Below are positions 7,218 through 32,855 of a DNA stretch of 64,000 nucleotides, one piece after another. This stretch comes from Sanyastnella coralliicola (GTDB taxonomy: Bacteria > Bacteroidota > Bacteroidia > Flavobacteriales_D > Sanyastnellaceae). How positions within the stretch are numbered: position 1 is the stretch's first letter; every line of letters starts with the position of its first letter. Under the pieces are notes generated by a model. The model was given only the letters and a program-made list of their open reading frames with translations, made no database searches and was not told the origin of the DNA. A program made the position numbers and the translations under genes. The DNA is taken from the NCBI RefSeq assembly GCF_030845195.1, contig NZ_CP132543.1, forward strand, positions 3,117,501-3,181,500. The letters are read 5' to 3'.

Positions 7218-9862
7218 TACCATTCGAAACTGAATTGAATTGACGGAACCGTGCCTAAGAACAATTGATCACGCAAGGCGACCTCAATTGATTCTTCCTG
7301 GGTTCCTAACAAATAATAATAACGATTGCGGACGTTCGTACGGTTATATACATTGTACAAAGAGAAGCCGATACTTGCATTCCCTTCTCCTAAAGTGAAG
7401 TCATAGAAGCCGCTGAGATCAAGACGATGATAGTCTGGTAATCGTCCGGAATGAATCTCGGCAAAGGCCAACAGCTGTTCAGTCTCACCATTGATCAAGG
7501 TGATATCATACACCCCAGCTGCCGGGGTATACGGCAAACCAGTCGCATAAACGAATACAGCATTGACACGGAATCGTCCCGGACGGAACTGATACACGGT
7601 CTTCAGCTCATGACTGCGGTCATACCATGCGGGAATCTGATCTCCTTGCAATTCATTGAAGGTGTTTTCTGTAGAACTCAAAGTGTAGGCGATCCATCCG
7701 CTATGCACCCCTAATTCTTTGCGCGCGAGCAATTCGATACCACGCGATTTACCATCACCATTCAACAGGTTCTGTTCGAAAGTACCTGCGGGCAAGGAGG
7801 TAAAGCGCAAGGCATCCTCTGTCACACCGGATGCGGTCTTATACCAAGCATCCGCACTGAAAGAGAAGAGTCCTTTGGTGATGGAGAATCCGGCCGTGAG
7901 CTGTTCGGTCTGCAAGACAGGAATGCGCGACTCCCCCGCCAAACGCCACTCATCGCTGGTATTCAGGAACAGGTCTTGACGACGCACATTGCGAATGAAT
8001 TGGTGGTTGGCTCCAGCTCCTACATGTAAGGTTAACGACGGAGTGGCTTTAAAATCCATCAAAAAGCGCGGCTCCGGATAAAGTGACCGGTTGCGATCAA
8101 AATACACCGCACGGAAACCAGCCTCGAAGAAGAAACGTTCGTTCAATTTCCATTGGTCACCTACATACACCGCAGCAATACTCGCTGCTGCCGTATCTGA
8201 ATCGTTCTCGCCATTGCTCGCCAACTGACTGTTCGATACATTGATCGCCGTGAGCTCAGCCCCCATATTAATTAGGTGTCCTGGTAAACTGATTTCGTGA
8301 TCAAGGCGCAAAGTACCATCAGCGATGCGTGTATCGCGATCGAAGAAAAGCGTATCGGTAGTTCCAATCAACAAGTTCTCTCGGCTATCAAAACCAAAGA
8401 GCTCAGAAGAGAAGACGGACCGACCAAAGGTCACGCTCGAGAAATGTTGGGCATTCCATTGGTTGGTCCATTTCGCACCGTAACCCAAATTACCCCACTC
8501 GCTGCGATCATTGTAGCCCACGAAGAATCTTCCGTCAGTCGTGCTATCTGAATAGGCAATCGACAAACGATCTCTACCTGAATAAAGTGAGAACGACAAG
8601 TCGCCGCGCTCGCCCACCTCGAGGGCTAACTTTCCAGTGATGTCATAGAAATGAAAATCAGGAGAGCTCTCATTGGTGAAGGCATTGACCTCATCATTGG
8701 CTCCTGGCAAGACGCTGTTATTGAAGACGCCATTGAAGAGTTCTTGATAGGCCGGACTAAACACCACATCCGTAAATGAACGTCGGGCAGACAACATAAG
8801 CGTAGCGCGGTCTGCGAGAATCGGGGATTCAATATGCGCCGCAGCACTAAGCAAGTTCAAGTCGGTTTTGATTACCGGTTTATTCTTGTTTCCTGTGCGT
8901 CCGGTAATCTCTAAAACCGACGACCCTCTTCCTCCAAACTTCGGACTGAACACGCCTTTGTGCAGACGCACGCTTTGAATGGAGTTCGTATTAAAGGCCG
9001 AGAACAACCCGTAGAAGTGATCGAGGTAATAGATGGTGAATCCATCATAGGTCACCAGGTTTTCGTCTCCAGCCCCTCCCCTCACGTGAATGAAGGCCGA
9101 GTTTTCGAGCGCCCCACTTACTCCGGGCAGCAGCTGAATGGTACGTACGATATCGGGTTCACCAATACTCGGAAGTTCGTTGGCCAGTTCACCATCCACT
9201 AAGGTGAGCGATGGCCGTTCTACTTTAATGGTAGATCCTTGGCGGTAGGTCGTGACTTGCGCGGTTGGTAGCAACGCCCGTGATCGCGAGAGGTAGATCT
9301 CTACGTTCTCCAGATCGGTGGAAGGTGTCAACTGCAAACGGAAGGGGTCGTACCCCACGTAAGTACAAACCAAGACCACGGTATCTGCCGTGACATTATT
9401 TAAGGTGAAATACCCCTGCAGGTTTGAGTTGTTCGCATTGCTGGTGCCCTCTTCGGCCACGGTAGCATAAGGTAAGGGCTCTCCATTGTCGAGGTCCATG
9501 ACACGCCCGAACACCGAGATTTCAAACCGAGTGGGTTTGTTTTGTGCCAGTCGTTCATTCTGTGGGTAGATCACAAAGGTGCCGTAGATCAACTCGTAGG
9601 TAAAACCAATAGGGATTAACCACTGACGTAGCAGGGCTTCGGGAGACATCCATTCACCTGTTCCCGTCACACGGTAATTGCGCAGCTGGCGGTTATCGTA
9701 GGCAAGTGGGAGATTAAATTCTTTTCGAAGATCAAGCAGCGCACGGTTGAGCTTCACTTCCTTACCATCAAAACGCACACTATCAGGGAGGTCTTGACCT
9801 TGGGTCGAAAGTGCCAGAAAGATCAGGGGTAGTATTAGGAAGATCTTGCTAAGGCGTTGCAT
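7217..9862 (-). CDS. TonB-dependent outer-membrane receptor with STN and carboxypeptidase-like domains
   Basis: The signal peptide (about residues 1-23) is followed by an STN (secretin/TonB short N-terminal) domain, at about 25-105, which is the signalling domain of sigma-coupled receptors. A carboxypeptidase-D regulatory-like domain comes next (VFGRVMDLDNGEPLPYATV). The plug follows (GEPDIVRTIQLLPGVSG, then FIHVRGGAGDENLVTYDG), and then a long beta-barrel ending in aromatic residues (FSFEW). It imports an unknown ligand across the outer membrane using TonB energy. The STN domain plus the upstream ECF sigma and downstream FecR imply cell-surface signalling that induces its own operon. The ATG overlaps the sigma stop as TGATG. 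Confidence 0.93.
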   Translation of the reverse strand: MQRLSKIFLILPLIFLALSTQGQDLPDSVRFDGKEVKLNRALLDLRKEFNLPLAYDNRQLRNYRVTGTGEWMSPEALLRQWLIPIGFTYELIYGTFVIYPQNERLAQNKPTRFEISVFGRVMDLDNGEPLPYATVAEEGTSNANNSNLQGYFTLNNVTADTVVLVCTYVGYDPFRLQLTPSTDLENVEIYLSRSRALLPTAQVTTYRQGSTIKVERPSLTLVDGELANELPSIGEPDIVRTIQLLPGVSGALENSAFIHVRGGAGDENLVTYDGFTIYYLDHFYGLFSAFNTNSIQSVRLHKGVFSPKFGGRGSSVLEITGRTGNKNKPVIKTDLNLLSAAAHIESPILADRATLMLSARRSFTDVVFSPAYQELFNGVFNNSVLPGANDEVNAFTNESSPDFHFYDITGKLALEVGERGDLSFSLYSGRDRLSIAYSDSTTDGRFFVGYNDRSEWGNLGYGAKWTNQWNAQHFSSVTFGRSVFSSELFGFDSRENLLIGTTDTLFFDRDTRIADGTLRLDHEISLPGHLINMGAELTAINVSNSQLASNGENDSDTAAASIAAVYVGDQWKLNERFFFEAGFRAVYFDRNRSLYPEPRFLMDFKATPSLTLHVGAGANHQFIRNVRRQDLFLNTSDEWRLAGESRIPVLQTEQLTAGFSITKGLFSFSADAWYKTASGVTEDALRFTSLPAGTFEQNLLNGDGKSRGIELLARKELGVHSGWIAYTLSSTENTFNELQGDQIPAWYDRSHELKTVYQFRPGRFRVNAVFVYATGLPYTPAAGVYDITLINGETEQLLAFAEIHSGRLPDYHRLDLSGFYDFTLGEGNASIGFSLYNVYNRTNVRNRYYYLLGTQEESIEVALRDQLFLGTVPSIQFSFEW

Positions 9863-27217: not shown

Positions 27218-28021
27218 TCATCCTTCTGGAATGACCAATACTGGTTTATTGGTATACATGCTTAAAGAGCGACTCACACTCTTGTGGAAGATTCCTTCAA
27301 AGAAGCCGTAATCATGGCGGATCACCGCTAAGAGATCTACCTCATTGTCTTTCATGTAAGCGTCGATCCCTGACACCACATCATCAGCAACGAGCTGAAC
27401 CATCTCCGGCATATCTCCATTAAAAGGAGTTTGCCAAGTATCAGGTACGCCATTCGCTGTGACCGCCTCGCGCTGCACATTCACCGCATGAAACTTCGTG
27501 CGGAACTTGCGAACGATGCGACGCAAGATCATCGCTTGGTCTTCTTTGATATTCTCGAAATCAGTCGCCAACGACACCAAGGCTGGTGTGCTCAACTCCG
27601 TATCCAACGGAACCGCCAATACAGGGATGCGGGCTCCGCGAATGACATTCGATGTATTACTACCGAGAAGCTTTTTCTTTACGTCATCCGCGCCATGTGT
27701 ACCCATGACAATCAAGTCATAGTCTTCGGTGCGCATGATCGTCTTGATCACATCAATCACTCCTCCTTGGTGTACACGTCCGCTGAGTTTGATAGAATCA
27801 TGTAGTTCATCTCTTAAGGTCGCCACAGCTTCGGCCATGCCTTTTTCAGACTCATCGCGAAGTAGGTCATCAATGCTCACTAGCATTCCCGTACCTGTAT
27901 GAGGGACTTGCCATGTGTTGAGCAACACTACTTCTGGAGACTCGTCTCCAAAGAGTAACATAGCATAGCGCAGCGCCACCTTGGCGTTCTCACTAAAATC
28001 TATGGGGATCAATATCTTCAT
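27218..28021 (-). CDS. Universal stress protein, tandem UspA domains (second gene of pair)
   Basis: The ATG at 28021 gives MKILIPIDFSENAKVALRYA, the usual UspA start. The first UspA domain ends with the nucleotide-binding pattern MGTHGADDVKKKLLGSNTSNVI. The second half (about 150-267) is a degenerate UspA domain ending FHKSVSRSLSMYTNKPVLVIPE. Tandem UspA proteins are cytosolic and induced by growth arrest and redox or energy stress. It follows the other usp gene by 19 nt, and the pair shares the TGAC-N4-GTCA site at 28979. Confidence 0.93.
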   Translation of the reverse strand: MKILIPIDFSENAKVALRYAMLLFGDESPEVVLLNTWQVPHTGTGMLVSIDDLLRDESEKGMAEAVATLRDELHDSIKLSGRVHQGGVIDVIKTIMRTEDYDLIVMGTHGADDVKKKLLGSNTSNVIRGARIPVLAVPLDTELSTPALVSLATDFENIKEDQAMILRRIVRKFRTKFHAVNVQREAVTANGVPDTWQTPFNGDMPEMVQLVADDVVSGIDAYMKDNEVDLLAVIRHDYGFFEGIFHKSVSRSLSMYTNKPVLVIPEG

Positions 28022-28040
28022 CGTAGTAAGTAATAGTTCG

Positions 28041-28907
28041 TTACACTGGGAAGATGGCTCCTTTCGCCACCTCTTCTTTTTGCATCTTGACACTCAAGAC
28101 CGGACGGTCACTGTGATTGGTCACGTCTTCTGCCAGGCTCTGACGGAAGAAGTGTGAGAGACCTGTTCTTCCGTGTGTCTCAATACACACGAGGTCAGCA
28201 TCAATCTGAGCGGCGAACTCATGAATTCCCTTCTCCACGATCATTTCGTTGTAGGTATTCATGCTGAAGTTCTGGATGCCTGTATTTTCCACGAAGTCTT
28301 TCATCAACTTCATGCTGTAGTCTGTACTTTCAAAATTGGCTGGTGTAATCACCTTCAACAGGTGCGTCTCAGCCCCAAAGAGATCGATGAATGAGCGCAA
28401 CGCTCTGAATGAACGCGCAGATTCACCGAAGAAGTTCGATGCAAACACCACCTTCTCCACTCGGAAGTCTGGCATACGATCTTTCACGGTCAACACCGGA
28501 CAAGAAGCCGTGCGAACAATCTTCTCTGTGTTTGAGCCTACAAAGAACTCTTTCACTCCGCTCACGCCTTGAGAACCCATGACAATCAGGTCAATCTCAT
28601 GCTCTTTGGCTTTCTCTGAAATCGTCTCGTAAACGCTCTCCCATTGCAATACTTCCGCTACCTCTACCCCTTCAAAGAAAGGCTGGGAGATGAGTTTGTG
28701 GAATTCCTGTTTGGCCCGTTTCAGCATGAAGATGCCTTCAGCTGTATCTGGGGCGTCATCGAAACGATCATTCGTTCCGTAATGCGGAATATCAAGTGCG
28801 TGCAAAAGAAAGACGCGAGCGCCTGTTTGCTTCGCAATACCAGCTGCTACTTCAGCCGCGTAGTACGCGTACTTGGAAAAATCGGTGGGTACAAGAATTC
28901 TTTTCAT
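28041..28907 (-). CDS. Universal stress protein, tandem UspA domains (first gene of pair)
   Basis: MKRILVPTDFSKYAYYAAEVA opens the first UspA domain, which closes with IVMGSQGVSGVKEFFVGSNTEKIV. The second domain closes with CIETHGRTGLSHFFRQSLAEDV. Both halves thus keep the G-2x-G-9x-G-S/T ATP-binding type pattern in recognisable form. It is the first gene of a two-gene operon, preceded by a GAACTTTG -7 box (28926-28933) and a CRP/FNR-type palindrome. It is likely controlled by the CRP-domain response regulator encoded 1.2 kb upstream. Confidence 0.94.
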   Translation of the reverse strand: MKRILVPTDFSKYAYYAAEVAAGIAKQTGARVFLLHALDIPHYGTNDRFDDAPDTAEGIFMLKRAKQEFHKLISQPFFEGVEVAEVLQWESVYETISEKAKEHEIDLIVMGSQGVSGVKEFFVGSNTEKIVRTASCPVLTVKDRMPDFRVEKVVFASNFFGESARSFRALRSFIDLFGAETHLLKVITPANFESTDYSMKLMKDFVENTGIQNFSMNTYNEMIVEKGIHEFAAQIDADLVCIETHGRTGLSHFFRQSLAEDVTNHSDRPVLSVKMQKEEVAKGAIFPV

Positions 28908-28925
28908 AACGGAAAAGTTGGTTTA

Positions 28926-28933
28926 CAAAGTTC
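28926..28933 (-). promoter_or_regulatory. -7 box GAACTTTG of the usp operon
   Basis: One mismatch from TAnnTTTG. Its last G (28926) is 58.5 bp from the centre of the TGAC-N4-GTCA site, the same distance as at the 29962 gene. Confidence 0.5.
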
Positions 28934-28978
28934 GAGGGATAGATGCCGGGACACCATGATGTGCCCCAGTCATCTAAC

Positions 28979-28990
28979 TGACATTTGTCA
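28979..28990. promoter_or_regulatory. CRP/FNR-type palindrome TGACATTTGTCA upstream of usp operon
   Basis: Perfect TGAC-N4-GTCA, extended to CTGAC..GTCAG. It lies between the coiled-coil gene stop (28997) and the usp promoter, about 62 bp upstream of the predicted transcription start, a class I activator position. Confidence 0.75.
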
Positions 28991-28996
28991 GGTTTT

Positions 28997-29401
28997 TTAC
29001 ATCCACTTGCTAAGGAAGCGGTTGAAATCATTCTTCAACTCCTTCCATAACTCTTCAAATCGCTGCATGCGATCCGTGAGCTCAGTGTGGTCTCTGAAAT
29101 AGGTGTGTTCAACCGCCGCAGGGTGGTCTTTCGCGTATTCTACCAACACTTTTTCATGAGCGTTGATGTCGTGACGCAGGGTATCGATCACTTCAATCTC
29201 ACGCAAGAACTGATTCTGAAAGTGCTCTACGTCAGCACGCTCCTCAGGCTTGTTGTTTTTGATACTCACCTCACCAAGGCGGTTGCGGAAGATCTCCAAT
29301 TCTTCTTTGTAGAACTCCAACTCCTTTACCCATGTCTGGTGTTCTTCGTGGAGTTCGTTCATGTAGCGTCTTTCTGCTACGGGAATTTTATCGTGATTCA
29401 T
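28997..29401 (-). CDS. Small coiled-coil protein of the stress block, function unknown
   Basis: The protein has 134 residues, highly charged and helical throughout, with heptad-like hydrophobic spacing (WVKELEFYKEELEIFRNRL, REIEVIDTLRHDINAHEKVL). There is no signal peptide, membrane segment or cysteine. I do not recognise the family. It is the third gene of a tight operon with the two small genes upstream (3 nt and 12 nt gaps), which a CRP/FNR-type site precedes, so a stress-protective or scaffold role is possible but unproven. Confidence 0.7.
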   Translation of the reverse strand: MNHDKIPVAERRYMNELHEEHQTWVKELEFYKEELEIFRNRLGEVSIKNNKPEERADVEHFQNQFLREIEVIDTLRHDINAHEKVLVEYAKDHPAAVEHTYFRDHTELTDRMQRFEELWKELKNDFNRFLSKWM

Positions 29402-29404
29402 TGC

Positions 29405-29752
29405 TTAATAGGTTTCGTTGTTCACTTTTTCTAGACTCCAGCTATCAGTGCGGGTAGTCTCTAACCATAGGTTGCCAGATTTGCGGAAGACCTGGGCATG
29501 CAAACCGTGCTTCTCAAGTTCTGCCTCGAGCTCTGCCACACTCATACTGCCGTCGACCTCTACATTCTCATGTCCTGAGTCGGTCAGCCATTCGGCGAGC
29601 TTACGTGATTCATCCACTTTCTCCGCAGCGGGAGAACCTTCTCCAACCCCATGAGGCTGAGTGAATAGCTGAATGGATAGTCGAGGAAAGAGTTGATTGA
29701 ACTGCTCTCGAAAGTCCCCGATGGTCTGGTCTTTATTCAATGCGAGTTTCAT
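29405..29752 (-). CDS. Small conserved hypothetical protein of the stress block
   Basis: The protein has 115 residues and starts MKLALNKDQTIGDFREQFNQLFPRL. The middle is acidic (KVDESRKLAEWL), then MSVAELEAELEKHGLHAQVFRKSGNLWLETTRTDSWSLEKVN forms an alpha-beta unit. I recognise no named domain. It sits in the middle of a three-gene operon under the TGAC-N4-GTCA site at 30034. No signal peptide is visible, so it is probably cytosolic. Confidence 0.7.
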   Translation of the reverse strand: MKLALNKDQTIGDFREQFNQLFPRLSIQLFTQPHGVGEGSPAAEKVDESRKLAEWLTDSGHENVEVDGSMSVAELEAELEKHGLHAQVFRKSGNLWLETTRTDSWSLEKVNNETY

Positions 29753-29764
29753 ATTGAATCGGTA

Positions 29765-29962
29765 TTATTTTGTTCGAAGGAATCGATACGCCAGCCAAAT
29801 CATACCCACACCGATGACGGGAGCAAGCCAAAAAGCTTGATCGTTTACCCAGTTCGGGATCACTGCACCGAGCATCAACCCGAAACCAACCATGGTGAGT
29901 TTGAGAATGGCGAAGTCGATGACTTCCAATTGTTCGCTATGTCGTTTTAGCCACTTGAGCAT
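29765..29962 (-). CDS. Small two-span membrane protein of the stress block
   Basis: From the ATG at 29962 the protein has 65 residues: a basic N-terminus (MLKWLKRHSEQLE), two hydrophobic segments (about 20-37 and 43-60, FGLMLGAVIPNW and APVIGVGMIWLAYRF) and a basic C-terminus. A TTG at 29983 would add seven residues, but it lies inside the predicted -7 box (CATCTTTG, 29981-29988), so the internal ATG is preferred. It is the first gene of the operon with the two small soluble proteins. Function is unknown. Confidence 0.65.
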   Translation of the reverse strand: MLKWLKRHSEQLEVIDFAILKLTMVGFGLMLGAVIPNWVNDQAFWLAPVIGVGMIWLAYRFLRTK

Positions 29963-29980
29963 CTCTCTTTGTTTCTGTAT

Positions 29981-29988
29981 CAAAGATG
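29981..29988 (-). promoter_or_regulatory. -7 box CATCTTTG of the small-protein operon
   Basis: One mismatch from TAnnTTTG. Its last G (29981) is 58.5 bp from the centre of the palindrome at 30034-30045, identical to the geometry at the usp operon. Confidence 0.5.
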
Positions 29989-30033
29989 CCCCACGACAAG
30001 CGGAACTGCCCTGCGCTACGACAGCCAGGGAGC

Positions 30034-30045
30034 TGACTTCGGTCA
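30034..30045. promoter_or_regulatory. CRP/FNR-type palindrome TGACTTCGGTCA upstream of the small-protein operon
   Basis: TGAC-N4-GTCA, extended perfectly to AGCTGAC..GTCAGCT (30031-30048). It stands between the stop of the CRP-domain response regulator gene and the small membrane protein gene. Confidence 0.75.
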
Positions 30046-30065
30046 GCTTTCTAAATAAGAGGGGA

Positions 30066-31133
30066 TTAGCCTACTGGCTGGCCACAGTATTGGCTCAGTA
30101 CTTCAGGCTTGTTCACGGTGATCGATCTTCCTTGTACGGTAATCGTTCCGTCTTCTTTGAAATCACTCAAGGTCCGGATCAACGACTCTGTAGCCGTACC
30201 CACCATTGACGCTAGATCGTCACGAGAGATGCGAATCATCTCAGCGTTGCCTTCTTTGACGAAGCGGTTATAGAGCTCCAACAAAGCACACGCCGTGCGC
30301 TCGCGAACTGGTGCGTAAGCCAATTGAAGCAAACGAAGTTCTTGCTCGTGAATAGACCCCGCCAACATGCGAATGAAACGCACCGCTACATCACGGTTAC
30401 TTTCAATCAATGTCAAGAAATCAGCACGAGGAATCATCAGCACTTCGGCATTCTCTAATGCAATCGCTGTTTCCTGGTGGTCTTTTCCTTCTAGAATCGA
30501 CATGAATCCGAAATAGTCACCTTGAGCCACGAGTTGAACAACCAACTCCTTCCCATAGTGATCTGTCTTGATAATCTTCGCCTTTCCTTTGCGAAGGAGG
30601 TAGAGGTAATTCGGAAAATCCCCTTCACGGAAGATGACTTCTTTAGCCAAGTAGGTGCGTGACTTTCGATCATTGGAAAGCTCTTCCAAAGCAGCTACCC
30701 CACGTGCATCTGACAAGAAGGCGTCGAAACCTTCTTCTGAGGGATCGTATTCACGTTGAATCGACTCCACTTTTCGCAGGCGACTTTCTACCGCGCTCAA
30801 CAAGTCCATTTCTTCAAATGGTTTGGTCAGATAGTCGTCAGCCCCCATGTTCATCCCCTTACGCACTTCACTAGCTTCCGCTTTAGCGGTCAAGAAAATG
30901 AACGGAATCGCTGCTGTCGAAGGATCTTTACTTAGATAGTACAATACCCCGTACCCATCCAATTCAGGCATCATGATGTCGCAAATGATCAAGTCAGGAG
31001 AAACGCTCTTGGCTTTCTCCACACCTACCTTACCATTCTCTGCAGTCACCACTTCATAGTTCGCCAACTCCAGCATTTCTGCTGTGTTTTCGCGCATGGC
31101 CTCATTGTCTTCGATCAACAGTATCTTTTTCAT
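30066..31133 (-). CDS. Response regulator with CRP/FNR-type output (receiver + cNMP-binding-like + HTH)
   Basis: Residues 1-120 are a receiver domain with phospho-acceptor D52 (LIICDIMMPELDG) and the switch Lys in YLTKPFEEMD. Residues about 160-270 are a cyclic-nucleotide-binding-type fold (EVIFREGDFPNYLYLLRKGKAKI, then GDYFGFMSILEG). The C-terminal crp-type HTH has recognition-helix residues TESLIRTL, in which the Glu and the Arg four residues on match the spacing of the base-contacting pair in CRP/FNR proteins. It is translated from an ATGA overlap with the sensor kinase gene. The four TGAC-N4-GTCA sites nearby are its likely operators, though that is inferred. Confidence 0.92.
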   Translation of the reverse strand: MKKILLIEDNEAMRENTAEMLELANYEVVTAENGKVGVEKAKSVSPDLIICDIMMPELDGYGVLYYLSKDPSTAAIPFIFLTAKAEASEVRKGMNMGADDYLTKPFEEMDLLSAVESRLRKVESIQREYDPSEEGFDAFLSDARGVAALEELSNDRKSRTYLAKEVIFREGDFPNYLYLLRKGKAKIIKTDHYGKELVVQLVAQGDYFGFMSILEGKDHQETAIALENAEVLMIPRADFLTLIESNRDVAVRFIRMLAGSIHEQELRLLQLAYAPVRERTACALLELYNRFVKEGNAEMIRISRDDLASMVGTATESLIRTLSDFKEDGTITVQGRSITVNKPEVLSQYCGQPVG

Positions 31134-32668
31134 AGATCTCTTATAGGAAGGGTTATCGTGAATCGTGTTCCCGAATGCTCTTTACTTTCAAATGTTAGCT
31201 CTCCTGAGAGCAAATCTACGTAGCGTTTTACAATATGCAGCCCCAATCCGGTGCCTTGAATATTTGTCGCGTTGGTTGCTCTGAAAAAGCGAGAGAACAA
31301 GTGCTCCTGCTCTTCCTTTGGAATACCAATCCCTTGATCTTTGACTGACAAAGAGATATGATCTCCTTCACGCTTCAGATCCAACTTGATTTCGCTGTTT
31401 TCTGGAGAGTACTTGATGGCGTTCGATAACAAATTGATGGTCACATTTCGAATTATGTGTTCATCCGTAGTCAAGGTCACCTCATCAATAGAGGCACTCA
31501 CATATTGCCCCGGCTTTTGATGGTTCTCCATTTCTTCTATCACCTCACGCATCAAATGCGATAGATCAACTTCTGCAAATCGCGCTTCGATTCTACCCTC
31601 TTCCAGTTTATCCAATGACAAGAAATCATTCAAAATAGAAGTCAGGTTATGTACTGAACCCTGAATGCGATCCAAGTGCTTTGGCGTTTTATCGAGTTGC
31701 TCGTTTTCTATGTATCTGCGCACTAGCGTGGAACTGGTTAGGACCGTACTCAGCGGTGTGCGGAACTCATGCGAAGCCATACTTACAAAGCGCGATTTCA
31801 ACTCATTCAATTCACGCTCTTTGTGCAGTGCGTTTTTGATATCCTCTTGGGCTTTCTTCTGTTCGGTGATGTTTTGCTCTACCACCAAGACTTGGGTAAT
31901 CTTCCCATGACTATCGGGTAAGCCAACCGCGTTTAACTGGTAACTCTCCGTCTTAGAATCCACCTGAAACGAGGTGTTCTCACCGTGAAAAACAGCGCGT
32001 AACTTCGGTTCAATCATTTCCCGTGCATCTTCTGGAAGCCGGTCTAAGTAGGAAGTCCCCATCAAGTGATCACTGGTCAAGCCGTGACGGAACAACTCTT
32101 GTCCCTCAACAAAGACATATTCCAGATTTTCATCAAACACATTGATCGTACCGTTCGGGAAATTTCGAGCAATAATGCGGTAGAGGTTCTGGCTTTCCTT
32201 CAACTCTTGCGTGCGTTCTTCCACCTTTTCTTCTAGGGACGCGTTCAAGTCTTGAAGTGCAATTTCAGCGCGTTTTCGATCGCTGATATCGGTTACCAAG
32301 GCCATGACCACCAAGTCACCCTCTTCATTTCGCATGTAGTTCAAGCTGATCTCTACCGGAAACTCTTCCCCGTCTTTCTTTACCGCTAACAGATCCATCC
32401 CCTTCCCCATCGAGCGCTTGTGCGGGTTGGCGTGATAGGCGTCGCGATGACCAACGTGTTGCTTGCGAATGCGTTGCGGTACCAATGCTTCGATCTTTTC
32501 TCCGATCAATTCATTGCGTTCGTACCCGAACATATCTTCAAGCTGTTGATTAACGATCAAGATTTCACCTTCACCATTGACCAGCATCAATCCTTCCGCT
32601 GCGGTGTCAAAGAGAAGCTGACCAGCTCCTTCTTTTAAGGTGTCCTTTTTGTCGATATAACGATTCAT
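31130..32668 (-). CDS. Soluble PAS-domain sensor histidine kinase
   Basis: PAS domain 1 spans about 15-130 (LFDTAAEGLMLVNGEGEILIVN), with its PAC end MALVTDISDRKRAE. PAS 2 spans about 160-272 after a coiled linker. HisKA has phospho-accepting His300 in SMASHEFRTPLSTVL and is followed by HATPase_c (NLLSNAIKYS, DQGIGIPKEEQEHLFSRFFRA, GTGLGLHIVKRYV). No signal peptide or membrane span is present, so it probably senses a cytosolic cue such as redox state or a gas. No haem or flavin ligand can be assigned from the sequence. It is the first gene of the operon with the CRP-type regulator. Confidence 0.94.
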   Translation of the reverse strand: MNRYIDKKDTLKEGAGQLLFDTAAEGLMLVNGEGEILIVNQQLEDMFGYERNELIGEKIEALVPQRIRKQHVGHRDAYHANPHKRSMGKGMDLLAVKKDGEEFPVEISLNYMRNEEGDLVVMALVTDISDRKRAEIALQDLNASLEEKVEERTQELKESQNLYRIIARNFPNGTINVFDENLEYVFVEGQELFRHGLTSDHLMGTSYLDRLPEDAREMIEPKLRAVFHGENTSFQVDSKTESYQLNAVGLPDSHGKITQVLVVEQNITEQKKAQEDIKNALHKERELNELKSRFVSMASHEFRTPLSTVLTSSTLVRRYIENEQLDKTPKHLDRIQGSVHNLTSILNDFLSLDKLEEGRIEARFAEVDLSHLMREVIEEMENHQKPGQYVSASIDEVTLTTDEHIIRNVTINLLSNAIKYSPENSEIKLDLKREGDHISLSVKDQGIGIPKEEQEHLFSRFFRATNATNIQGTGLGLHIVKRYVDLLSGELTFESKEHSGTRFTITLPIRDL

Positions 32669-32713
32669 CCTACGGTCTGTATAAGGCTAAGGTAGGAGAT
32701 TTGCGCATTGATT

Positions 32714-32725
32714 TGACTACTGTCA
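32714..32725. promoter_or_regulatory. CRP/FNR-type palindrome TGACTACTGTCA upstream of the PAS kinase
   Basis: Perfect TGAC-N4-GTCA centred about 32 bp upstream of the last base of a weak -7 candidate (TACCTTAG, complement of 32687-32694), so near the -33 region. This fits autoregulation of the kinase-regulator operon. Confidence 0.7.
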
Positions 32726-32840
32726 GGCTAAGTGATTGGCCTTGTGATCACAGCGTATTTCCTCTAAGTTTCTCGCCTCGTTGAGCACAAATTTGAGGTA
32801 CGAATAGCAATTCGTCTGGAACATTCATCACATTGGCAAC

Positions 32841-32852
32841 TGACCTTCGTCA
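32841..32852. promoter_or_regulatory. CRP/FNR-type palindrome TGACCTTCGTCA between the PAS kinase and pheT
   Basis: Perfect TGAC-N4-GTCA extended to CTGAC..GTCAG. It is 72 bp ahead of the pheT ATG and 172 bp from the kinase start, so it could serve either direction. Confidence 0.65.
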
Positions 32853-32855
32853 GGA

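Follow-up and report, generated by a model that had tools for sequence, protein, structure and literature searches.

The window analysed here is a stretch of 64,000 nucleotides from the genome of Sanyastnella coralliicola (contig NZ_CP132543.1, positions 3,117,501 to 3,181,500). On its minus strand, from 32668 down to 27218, lie the genes for a histidine kinase, a response regulator with a CRP/FNR-like output, three small proteins (72, 115 and 134 amino acids) and two tandem-domain universal stress proteins (Usp). A preliminary description, made from the sequence alone, had listed a soluble PAS kinase, a receiver-cNMP-helix-turn-helix (HTH) regulator, two Usp genes and three small genes. This inventory is borne out: by Pfam the kinase has PAS, HisKA and HATPase_c domains, and it has no hydrophobic segment. 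The same description placed perfect TGAC-N4-GTCA palindromes at 28979, 30034, 32714 and 32841, and they are found at exactly these positions; a fifth copy, at 7611, falls within a coding open reading frame. Its statement that one palindrome precedes each transcription unit holds loosely, since the sites are present but 32714 and 32841 share a single 255-bp gap. The comparisons reported below suggest that the kinase and regulator form a two-component microaerobic switch for the cbb3, hemN-fixI, Usp and small genes, a reading to which we give a probability of about 0.72.

Table 1. Genes and predicted operators of the kinase-regulator locus (window positions).
Feature	Position	Strand	Remarks
Tandem-domain universal stress protein 2	27218..28093	-	Pfam
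Tandem-domain universal stress protein 1	28041..28907	-	Pfam
Predicted operator CTGAC-N4-GTCAG	28978..28991	.	78 bp upstream of first Usp gene
134-aa helical protein	28997..29401	-	
115-aa protein	29405..29752	-	Homologues present in related loci
72-aa protein	29765..29983	-	One hydrophobic segment
Predicted operator CTGAC-N4-GTCAG	30033..30046	.	After regulator, 57 bp upstream of 72-aa gene
REC-FNR regulator, 355 aa: receiver + cNMP-fold + HTH_Crp	30066..31133	-	4-bp overlap with kinase gene
Histidine kinase PAS-PAS-HisKA-HATPase_c, 512 aa	31130..32668	-	Soluble, no cysteine; Pfam, sequence
Predicted operator TTGAC-N4-GTCAG	32713..32726	.	About 50 bp upstream of kinase start
Predicted operator CTGAC-N4-GTCAG	32840..32853	.	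Kinase/pheT gap; centre about 179 bp and about 77 bp from their starts
pheT (named by eye)	starts 32924		Divergent from kinase

The regulator combines Response_reg, cNMP_binding (3.2e-24) and HTH_Crp_2 (1.8e-14) domains, the last two above Pfam cut-off. Among 78 aligned members of its family, the receiver residues D9, D52 and K104 are invariant and residue 82 is Thr in 74 and Ser in 4, so that the acidic pair, phospho-acceptor Asp, Thr/Ser and Lys of a response regulator are all in place. The Cys at residue 51, beside the phospho-acceptor, is also invariant (78/78). A cNMP_binding domain followed by HTH_Crp, with the recognition-helix residues E316 (78/78), I319 (76/78) and R320 (78/78), marks the protein as a member of the CRP/FNR superfamily, and the HTH Glu and Arg that had been read as CRP/FNR-like are thus fixed throughout the family. 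It shares the cNMP-binding fold and HTH_Crp with CRP, but lacks the Glu/Arg cAMP pocket of CRP proper: at positions 210 and 221, which an alignment by eye equates with the Glu and Arg that contact cAMP in CRP, the family instead has aromatic and acidic residues (Tyr 60, Phe 13 and His 4 at position 210; Glu 58 and Asp 19 at position 221). The neighbouring position 211 is Glu in 14/78. The four cysteine ligands of an Fe-S FNR are likewise missing. The earlier reading of a CRP/FNR-type response regulator agrees with these residues, which show an intact receiver and none of the known ligand signatures (no N-terminal Cys, no CRP-like cAMP residues), and with the pairing of the genes: in 75 of 81 family members a kinase gene immediately precedes that of the regulator, in the same orientation. 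This receiver-bearing (REC) form occurs in 23/148 genomes of a phylum sample, all of the same class.

The TGAY-N4-RTCA motif and its predicted target genes

The regulator was used to search genome contigs, and the best 80 loci of 567 relatives were kept; these are nearest kin, many of them Dyadobacter, and are not independent. A de novo scan of all 4-base palindromes with spacers of 3 to 8, ranked by intergenic versus coding counts, placed ATGA-N6-TCAT (48/25), TGAC-N4-GTCA (29/13) and TGAT-N4-ATCA (49/37) at the top, where the intergenic share is about 8% of bases. The three amount to a single motif, TGAY-N4-RTCA, which A or C precedes in most cases. Counted within 250 bp upstream of genes in the related loci, the motif precedes Usp genes in 19/39 and 14/14 cases, HemN in 17/24, FixI in 5/12, CcoN in 3/4 and the 115-aa gene in 4/4 clustered relatives. 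Control patterns (spacer 3, 5 or 6, or reversed) give 0-2 per target. Genes internal to operons rarely have it (CcoG 0/23, CcoH 0/25, SulE-like 2/27, the regulator itself 2/80), and among all other genes of these loci it stands upstream of 83/510 versus 3-7 for controls. The genes found near the regulator in the 80 loci include HemN (24), CcoG (23), CcoH-like (25), SulE-like (29), FixI (12) and CcoN (11), names that come from reading the proteins, the family search (PF00115) having covered CcoN in the S. coralliicola genome. The earlier proposal that the palindromes are operators is strengthened by the de novo motif and the target-gene counts, and on comparative grounds the palindrome is most readily understood as a real operator.

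In the S. coralliicola genome, the cbb3 and hemN-fixI genes lie away from the locus, at about 1.4495-1.4596 Mb. The ccoN gene is preceded by CTGACAATTGTCAG and GTGACGGCAGTCAC, 22 bp apart, and hemN (of hemN-fixI) by CTGACCTAGATCAG. Because the motif also precedes these genes elsewhere in the genome, the regulon is not self-contained, contrary to the preliminary description. The longer form CTGAC-N4-GTCAG, to which three of the four sites at the locus conform (3 in the window versus 0.03 expected), has 8 copies genome-wide (4.10 Mb) compared with 5 for a reversed control. The only promoter-placed copies are the three at the locus and one before ccoN; three others lie in coding sequence and one between convergent genes. 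In a near-identical metagenome-assembled genome (MAG; locus L013), the operator closest to the kinase start keeps all ten half-site bases while three of four spacer bases have changed. The operator before the first Usp gene occupies the same place in a family relative (G059, locus L235) with one spacer base changed. Alignment of kinase promoters across relatives was uninformative beyond L013.

The ccoN promoters were compared across 197 genomes of one class, which we take from named kin to be GTDB Bacteroidia, with the regulator called at E <= 1e-40 and ccoN at E <= 1e-100. The regulator is present in 98/197 genomes and ccoN in 114/197; 74 have both, 40 ccoN only and 59 neither. Thus, ccoN was found in 74/98 genomes with the regulator versus 40/99 without. 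The 500 bp upstream of ccoN were taken from 113 of the 114 genomes, omitting G178, whose match starts at a contig end, and a second G020 copy; the G157 sequence, also at a contig end, is shorter. TGAY-N4-RTCA occurs in 103/113 of these promoters, compared with 2-12/113 for other spacers from 0 to 12, and in 71/74 of those from genomes with the regulator. The CRP-like pattern TGTGA-N6-TCACA was found in 0/113. With the motif at ccoN across the class and Usp genes only some of the members, the universal-stress response of the preliminary description gives way to what appears to be a regulon of microaerobic respiration that counts Usp genes among its members. Two operators exactly 22 bp apart, or two helical turns, are present in 34/113 ccoN promoters (for example, L115 11795-11830), suggesting that dimers bind cooperatively.

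Receiver-bearing and cysteine-bearing forms

Almost all ccoN genomes that lack the REC regulator (38/40) carry a homologue of its cNMP-HTH half at E <= 1e-8. The open frames of these homologues are mostly near 240 aa and therefore have no receiver. In 18 of the genomes one such homologue shares a contig with ccoN and is no more than 10 kb away from it. When the best homologue from each of 30 of these genomes was aligned with the 78 regulators, E316, I319 and R320 were each present in 30/30, giving the same recognition helix as in the REC form. Four Cys columns are occupied in 28, 28, 28 and 29 of the 30 receiver-less proteins versus 0, 0, 0 and 10 of the 78 REC proteins, and a fifth in 22 of 30 versus 0. 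For the one receiver-less member tested, the best NCBIfam family was Fnr, below cut-off. By these features the receiver-less form looks like an Fe-S FNR, with the cluster itself presumed from the cysteines.

To compare the distribution of the two forms, the 197 genomes were searched with a single receiver-less protein, matches being listed down to about E 2e-45. Either form is present in 109/114 ccoN genomes (49 REC only, 35 receiver-less only, 25 both), and 5 have neither. Among the matches listed, the receiver-less form was found in 35/40 ccoN genomes without the REC form versus 25/74 with it (p 2.1e-8), and counting only matches that include the Cys segment gives 23/51 versus 33/7 (present/absent in genomes with and without the REC form; p 1.6e-7). 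When REC status was shuffled within families, 30.5 co-occurrences were expected for the 25 observed, and as few arose in 2/20,000 trials. Of 38 families, 12 are mixed. These counts suggest that one form tends to stand in for the other, and that this holds inside families as well. In one family, for example, the genes adjoining the end of the ccoN operon in G172 are those for the REC regulator, a Usp and the kinase; in G148 this operon continues into the gene for the Cys form, which in G193 is a neighbour of hemN.

Quick trees place the REC form in one clade with full support in the Shimodaira-Hasegawa-like approximate likelihood-ratio test (SH-aLRT). A quick tree nests this clade within the receiver-less form, on very long outgroup branches, and a tree with the receiver-less form as one clade is equally good (approximately unbiased test, p-AU 0.525). 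Without the outgroup, each form is one side of one branch. A single origin of the REC form is supported; a direction for the sensor swap is not.

A proposed low-oxygen switch and its alternatives

The first PAS domain of the kinase (PAS1) has the heme PAS domains of FixL and DosP among its closest solved structures (FixL E 4.5e-11), and its best structure match (5.2e-16) is the PAS of a multi-sensor kinase. Residue H71 of PAS1, kept in 71/75 aligned kinases (3 gaps, 1 Gln), is aligned by HMMER with a His of FixL that we take to be the heme ligand. Of the other PAS_9 domains of the genome, 16 could be read in a loose MAFFT alignment (a 17th could not), and not one of these has His at this position (one has a gap). 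The position that we take to be that of the FixL distal Arg is not Arg in this PAS domain. Oxygen sensing through a heme in PAS1 is thus a reasonable guess, at somewhat less than even odds.

In the proposed switch, the soluble PAS kinase would sense low oxygen or a linked redox cue, perhaps through a heme in PAS1, and when active would phosphorylate the receiver of the regulator. The phosphorylated receiver would allow the FNR-like output to dimerise on TGAY-N4-RTCA. Bound regulator would presumably activate, rather than repress, its own kinase-regulator operon as well as the cbb3 genes (ccoN and those following it), hemN-fixI, the Usp genes and the small genes. In sister lineages a Cys-bearing FNR would play this part; here a receiver would replace its N-terminal cysteines, such that the sensor differs and the operator and targets stay the same. 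A broader and more tentative proposal, which we consider slightly less probable than its negation, is that one low-oxygen operator serves two interchangeable inputs. An FNR-like activator would once have swapped its Fe-S sensor for a phosphoreceiver, or the reverse, with a FixL-like heme PAS kinase taking over sensing. A one-component system would thereby have become a two-component system in place, with operator and regulon kept.

A number of results weigh against the proposed switch. Judged by number, the palindromes could be a chance cluster: TGAC-N4-GTCA is not rare, with 84 copies in the genome (52 for the reversed pattern), and the looser MTGAY-N4-RTCAK (95 versus 29 genome-wide) occurs 4 times in the window versus 1.75 expected, a count that is reached in 6/100 shuffles and is not striking. 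Neither genome-wide count exceeds the window shuffle rates scaled up (about 90 and about 110), and strict MTGAC-N4-GTCAK has no general excess over its reversed control in the 197 genomes. Position, not number, therefore carries the signal. The search for sites near promoters that had been suggested for this genome is borne out to that extent, with 15/71 examined MTGAY-N4-RTCAK sites (out of the 95) intergenic versus 7.1% intergenic bases in those stretches (p 1.2e-4). With five sites set aside, namely those at this locus and at the cbb3 operon, 10/66 are intergenic, and a wider regulon is therefore tentative. Chance also fits poorly with the TGAC-N4-GTCA count in the window (5 versus 1.43 expected, with 0/100 dinucleotide shuffles reaching 5) and with random placement, which puts 4 of the 84 sites within 3,863 bp in 135/20,000 trials and 3 of the 8 strict sites in 28/200,000. 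Conservation across species, above all in the class-wide ccoN promoters, refutes it, and its probability is negligible. That the palindromes are RNA hairpins or terminators is also very improbable. Two sites lie just past a stop codon, the arms at 30034 reach 7 bp and a T-run adjoins 28979, but 32714 and 32841 are not at gene ends, the half-sites are often non-identical and the 4-base spacer is fixed in length with varying sequence. Across species the motif is found upstream of first and divergent genes, and this placement together with the fixed spacer led to rejection of the hairpin reading.

A more serious alternative is that the operators are read by some other FNR-type protein in the cell, with the REC regulator acting elsewhere or only modulating that protein. 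The box is kept at ccoN in 32/39 promoters from genomes without the regulator, so something else must read it there, and the box alone does not point to this regulator. Sorted by reader, it is present in 48/49 genomes in which only the REC form was found, 30/35 receiver-less-only genomes, 23/25 with both forms and 2/4 with neither. The 25 genomes in which the forms co-occur also count against the proposed switch, as do receiver-less matches weaker than about E 2e-45, which can be hidden, and Fisher tests that ignore kinship. At E <= 1e-20, 26 of the 49 REC-only genomes match the receiver-less query once, and G151 does not match it at all. Only G181 among these 26 lacks the ccoN box, and among the matches listed the single one is always the REC protein (in G054 a stop separates off its receiver part). 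S. coralliicola itself has a second HTH_Crp protein above Pfam cut-off and two weaker HTH matches. The recognition helix of this second protein (L120, 224 aa) differs, and its gene adjoins rhodanese- and metallo-hydrolase-like genes (by eye); the REC regulator is the genome's sole match to the receiver-less family at E <= 1e-20. An FNR-type competitor, which the preliminary description had named as the finding that would overturn it, thus probably exists in part, outside this genome: where the regulator is missing, a receiver-less homologue usually stands in for it under the shared operator. None was found within this genome at that threshold. On balance this alternative is unlikely. Elsewhere in the same genome, the gap in front of a quinone-oxidoreductase-like gene contains TTGACGAACGTCAA (L121 994-1007), and the gene for a cNMP-type regulator is found just past that gene; this T/A-flanked form of the palindrome may be the site of a different Crp-type protein.

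Likewise unlikely, if marginally less so, is a switch for general or nitrosative/redox stress, in which low oxygen is not the signal and cbb3 genes are only some of the targets. Usp genes are often among the targets, the PAS of the kinase might bind some different ligand, and 24 of the 98 genomes with the regulator have no ccoN match; other targets must therefore exist in those 24. The motif is also found upstream of the kinase in only 21/72 relatives and is missing there in G059, a further point against the proposed switch. Against a stress switch, cbb3 and HemN are among the constant targets, and the protein with which the regulator trades places is a Cys-bearing FNR homologue. A two-component microaerobic switch remains the preferred reading.

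This switch probably works most like the FixL-FixJ-FixK system (and hFixL-FxkR-FixK), as if the receiver of FixJ had been fused to FixK. Both have a sensor kinase, phosphotransfer (here predicted) and an FNR-like protein that lacks the Fe-S cysteines. In rhizobia the FNR-like protein turns on cbb3 (fixNOQP) and hem genes when oxygen is low; here the operator stands at ccoN and hemN. The exchange of forms has a rhizobial parallel as well: passages of PMC4999443 describe an Fe-S FnrN and a cluster-less FixK under FixLJ, and according to passages of PMC7888657 both act on fixNOQP, the two proteins reading the same kind of box. Unlike the rhizobial cascade, where receiver and FNR-like proteins are separate and linked by fixK transcription, receiver and FNR-like output here are one 355-aa protein, with one step fewer. 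The phylum differs too, and the box here is TGAY-N4-RTCA, usually preceded by A or C. With FNR, FnrN and ANR the regulator shares its superfamily, the recognition-helix Glu and Arg and the predicted cbb3 and hemN targets, but it has a receiver and no N-terminal cysteines. The DosR/DevR regulon is another two-component, low-oxygen regulon rich in universal stress proteins; its regulator is of the NarL/LuxR type and its sensors are GAF-heme kinases.

A search of open-licence articles in PubMed Central (title and start of abstract) returned nothing on a receiver-CRP/FNR fusion, on this regulon or on cbb3 control in Bacteroidota, and little was found in print on the control of respiration by oxygen in this phylum. 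The domain architecture is surely in databases. What is claimed as new is the exchange with the Cys form, together with the regulon and its operator. A predicted operator and predicted core targets can now be assigned to a regulator family that was found in half of the class sample. The exchange amounts to a natural experiment in which a network would change its sensor and keep its wiring, since sister genomes retain their promoter boxes even as the reader changes between a Cys-bearing FNR and a receiver-fused one. Convergence on a shortened version of rhizobial FixL-FixJ-FixK would make the choice between one- and two-component oxygen sensing testable.

Small genes and neighbours

The three small genes have no Pfam family match, and fold searches with structure models gave no match of E <= 0.001. 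The 72-aa protein has no tblastn match at E <= 0.01 in 84 related loci. In the 134-aa protein, five His are invariant across three aligned homologues, there is also an H-x4-D pair, and the model is a confident helical bundle (predicted local distance difference test, pLDDT, 89). A metal- or hemerythrin-like role is possible, the hemerythrin-like reading being unproven with no Pfam match above cut-off and no family or fold match. For the second Usp, the ATG at 28021 is a likelier start than the listed GTG, which overlaps the first Usp.

The near-identical MAG (97% amino acid identity) differs from the window at this locus. Between L013 5460-7930 and window 32210-27130, the genes for the kinase, the three small proteins and the Usp proteins have internal deletions, and the regulator, the operators and 5-6 kb on either side align gap-free. 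The regulon may be genuinely decaying in this MAG, or the assembly may be chimeric. Adjoining the Usp genes, a 397-aa protein at 25789-26982 matches the CAP12/Pycsar TIR effector domain weakly, below threshold, and is possibly the product of a defence gene.

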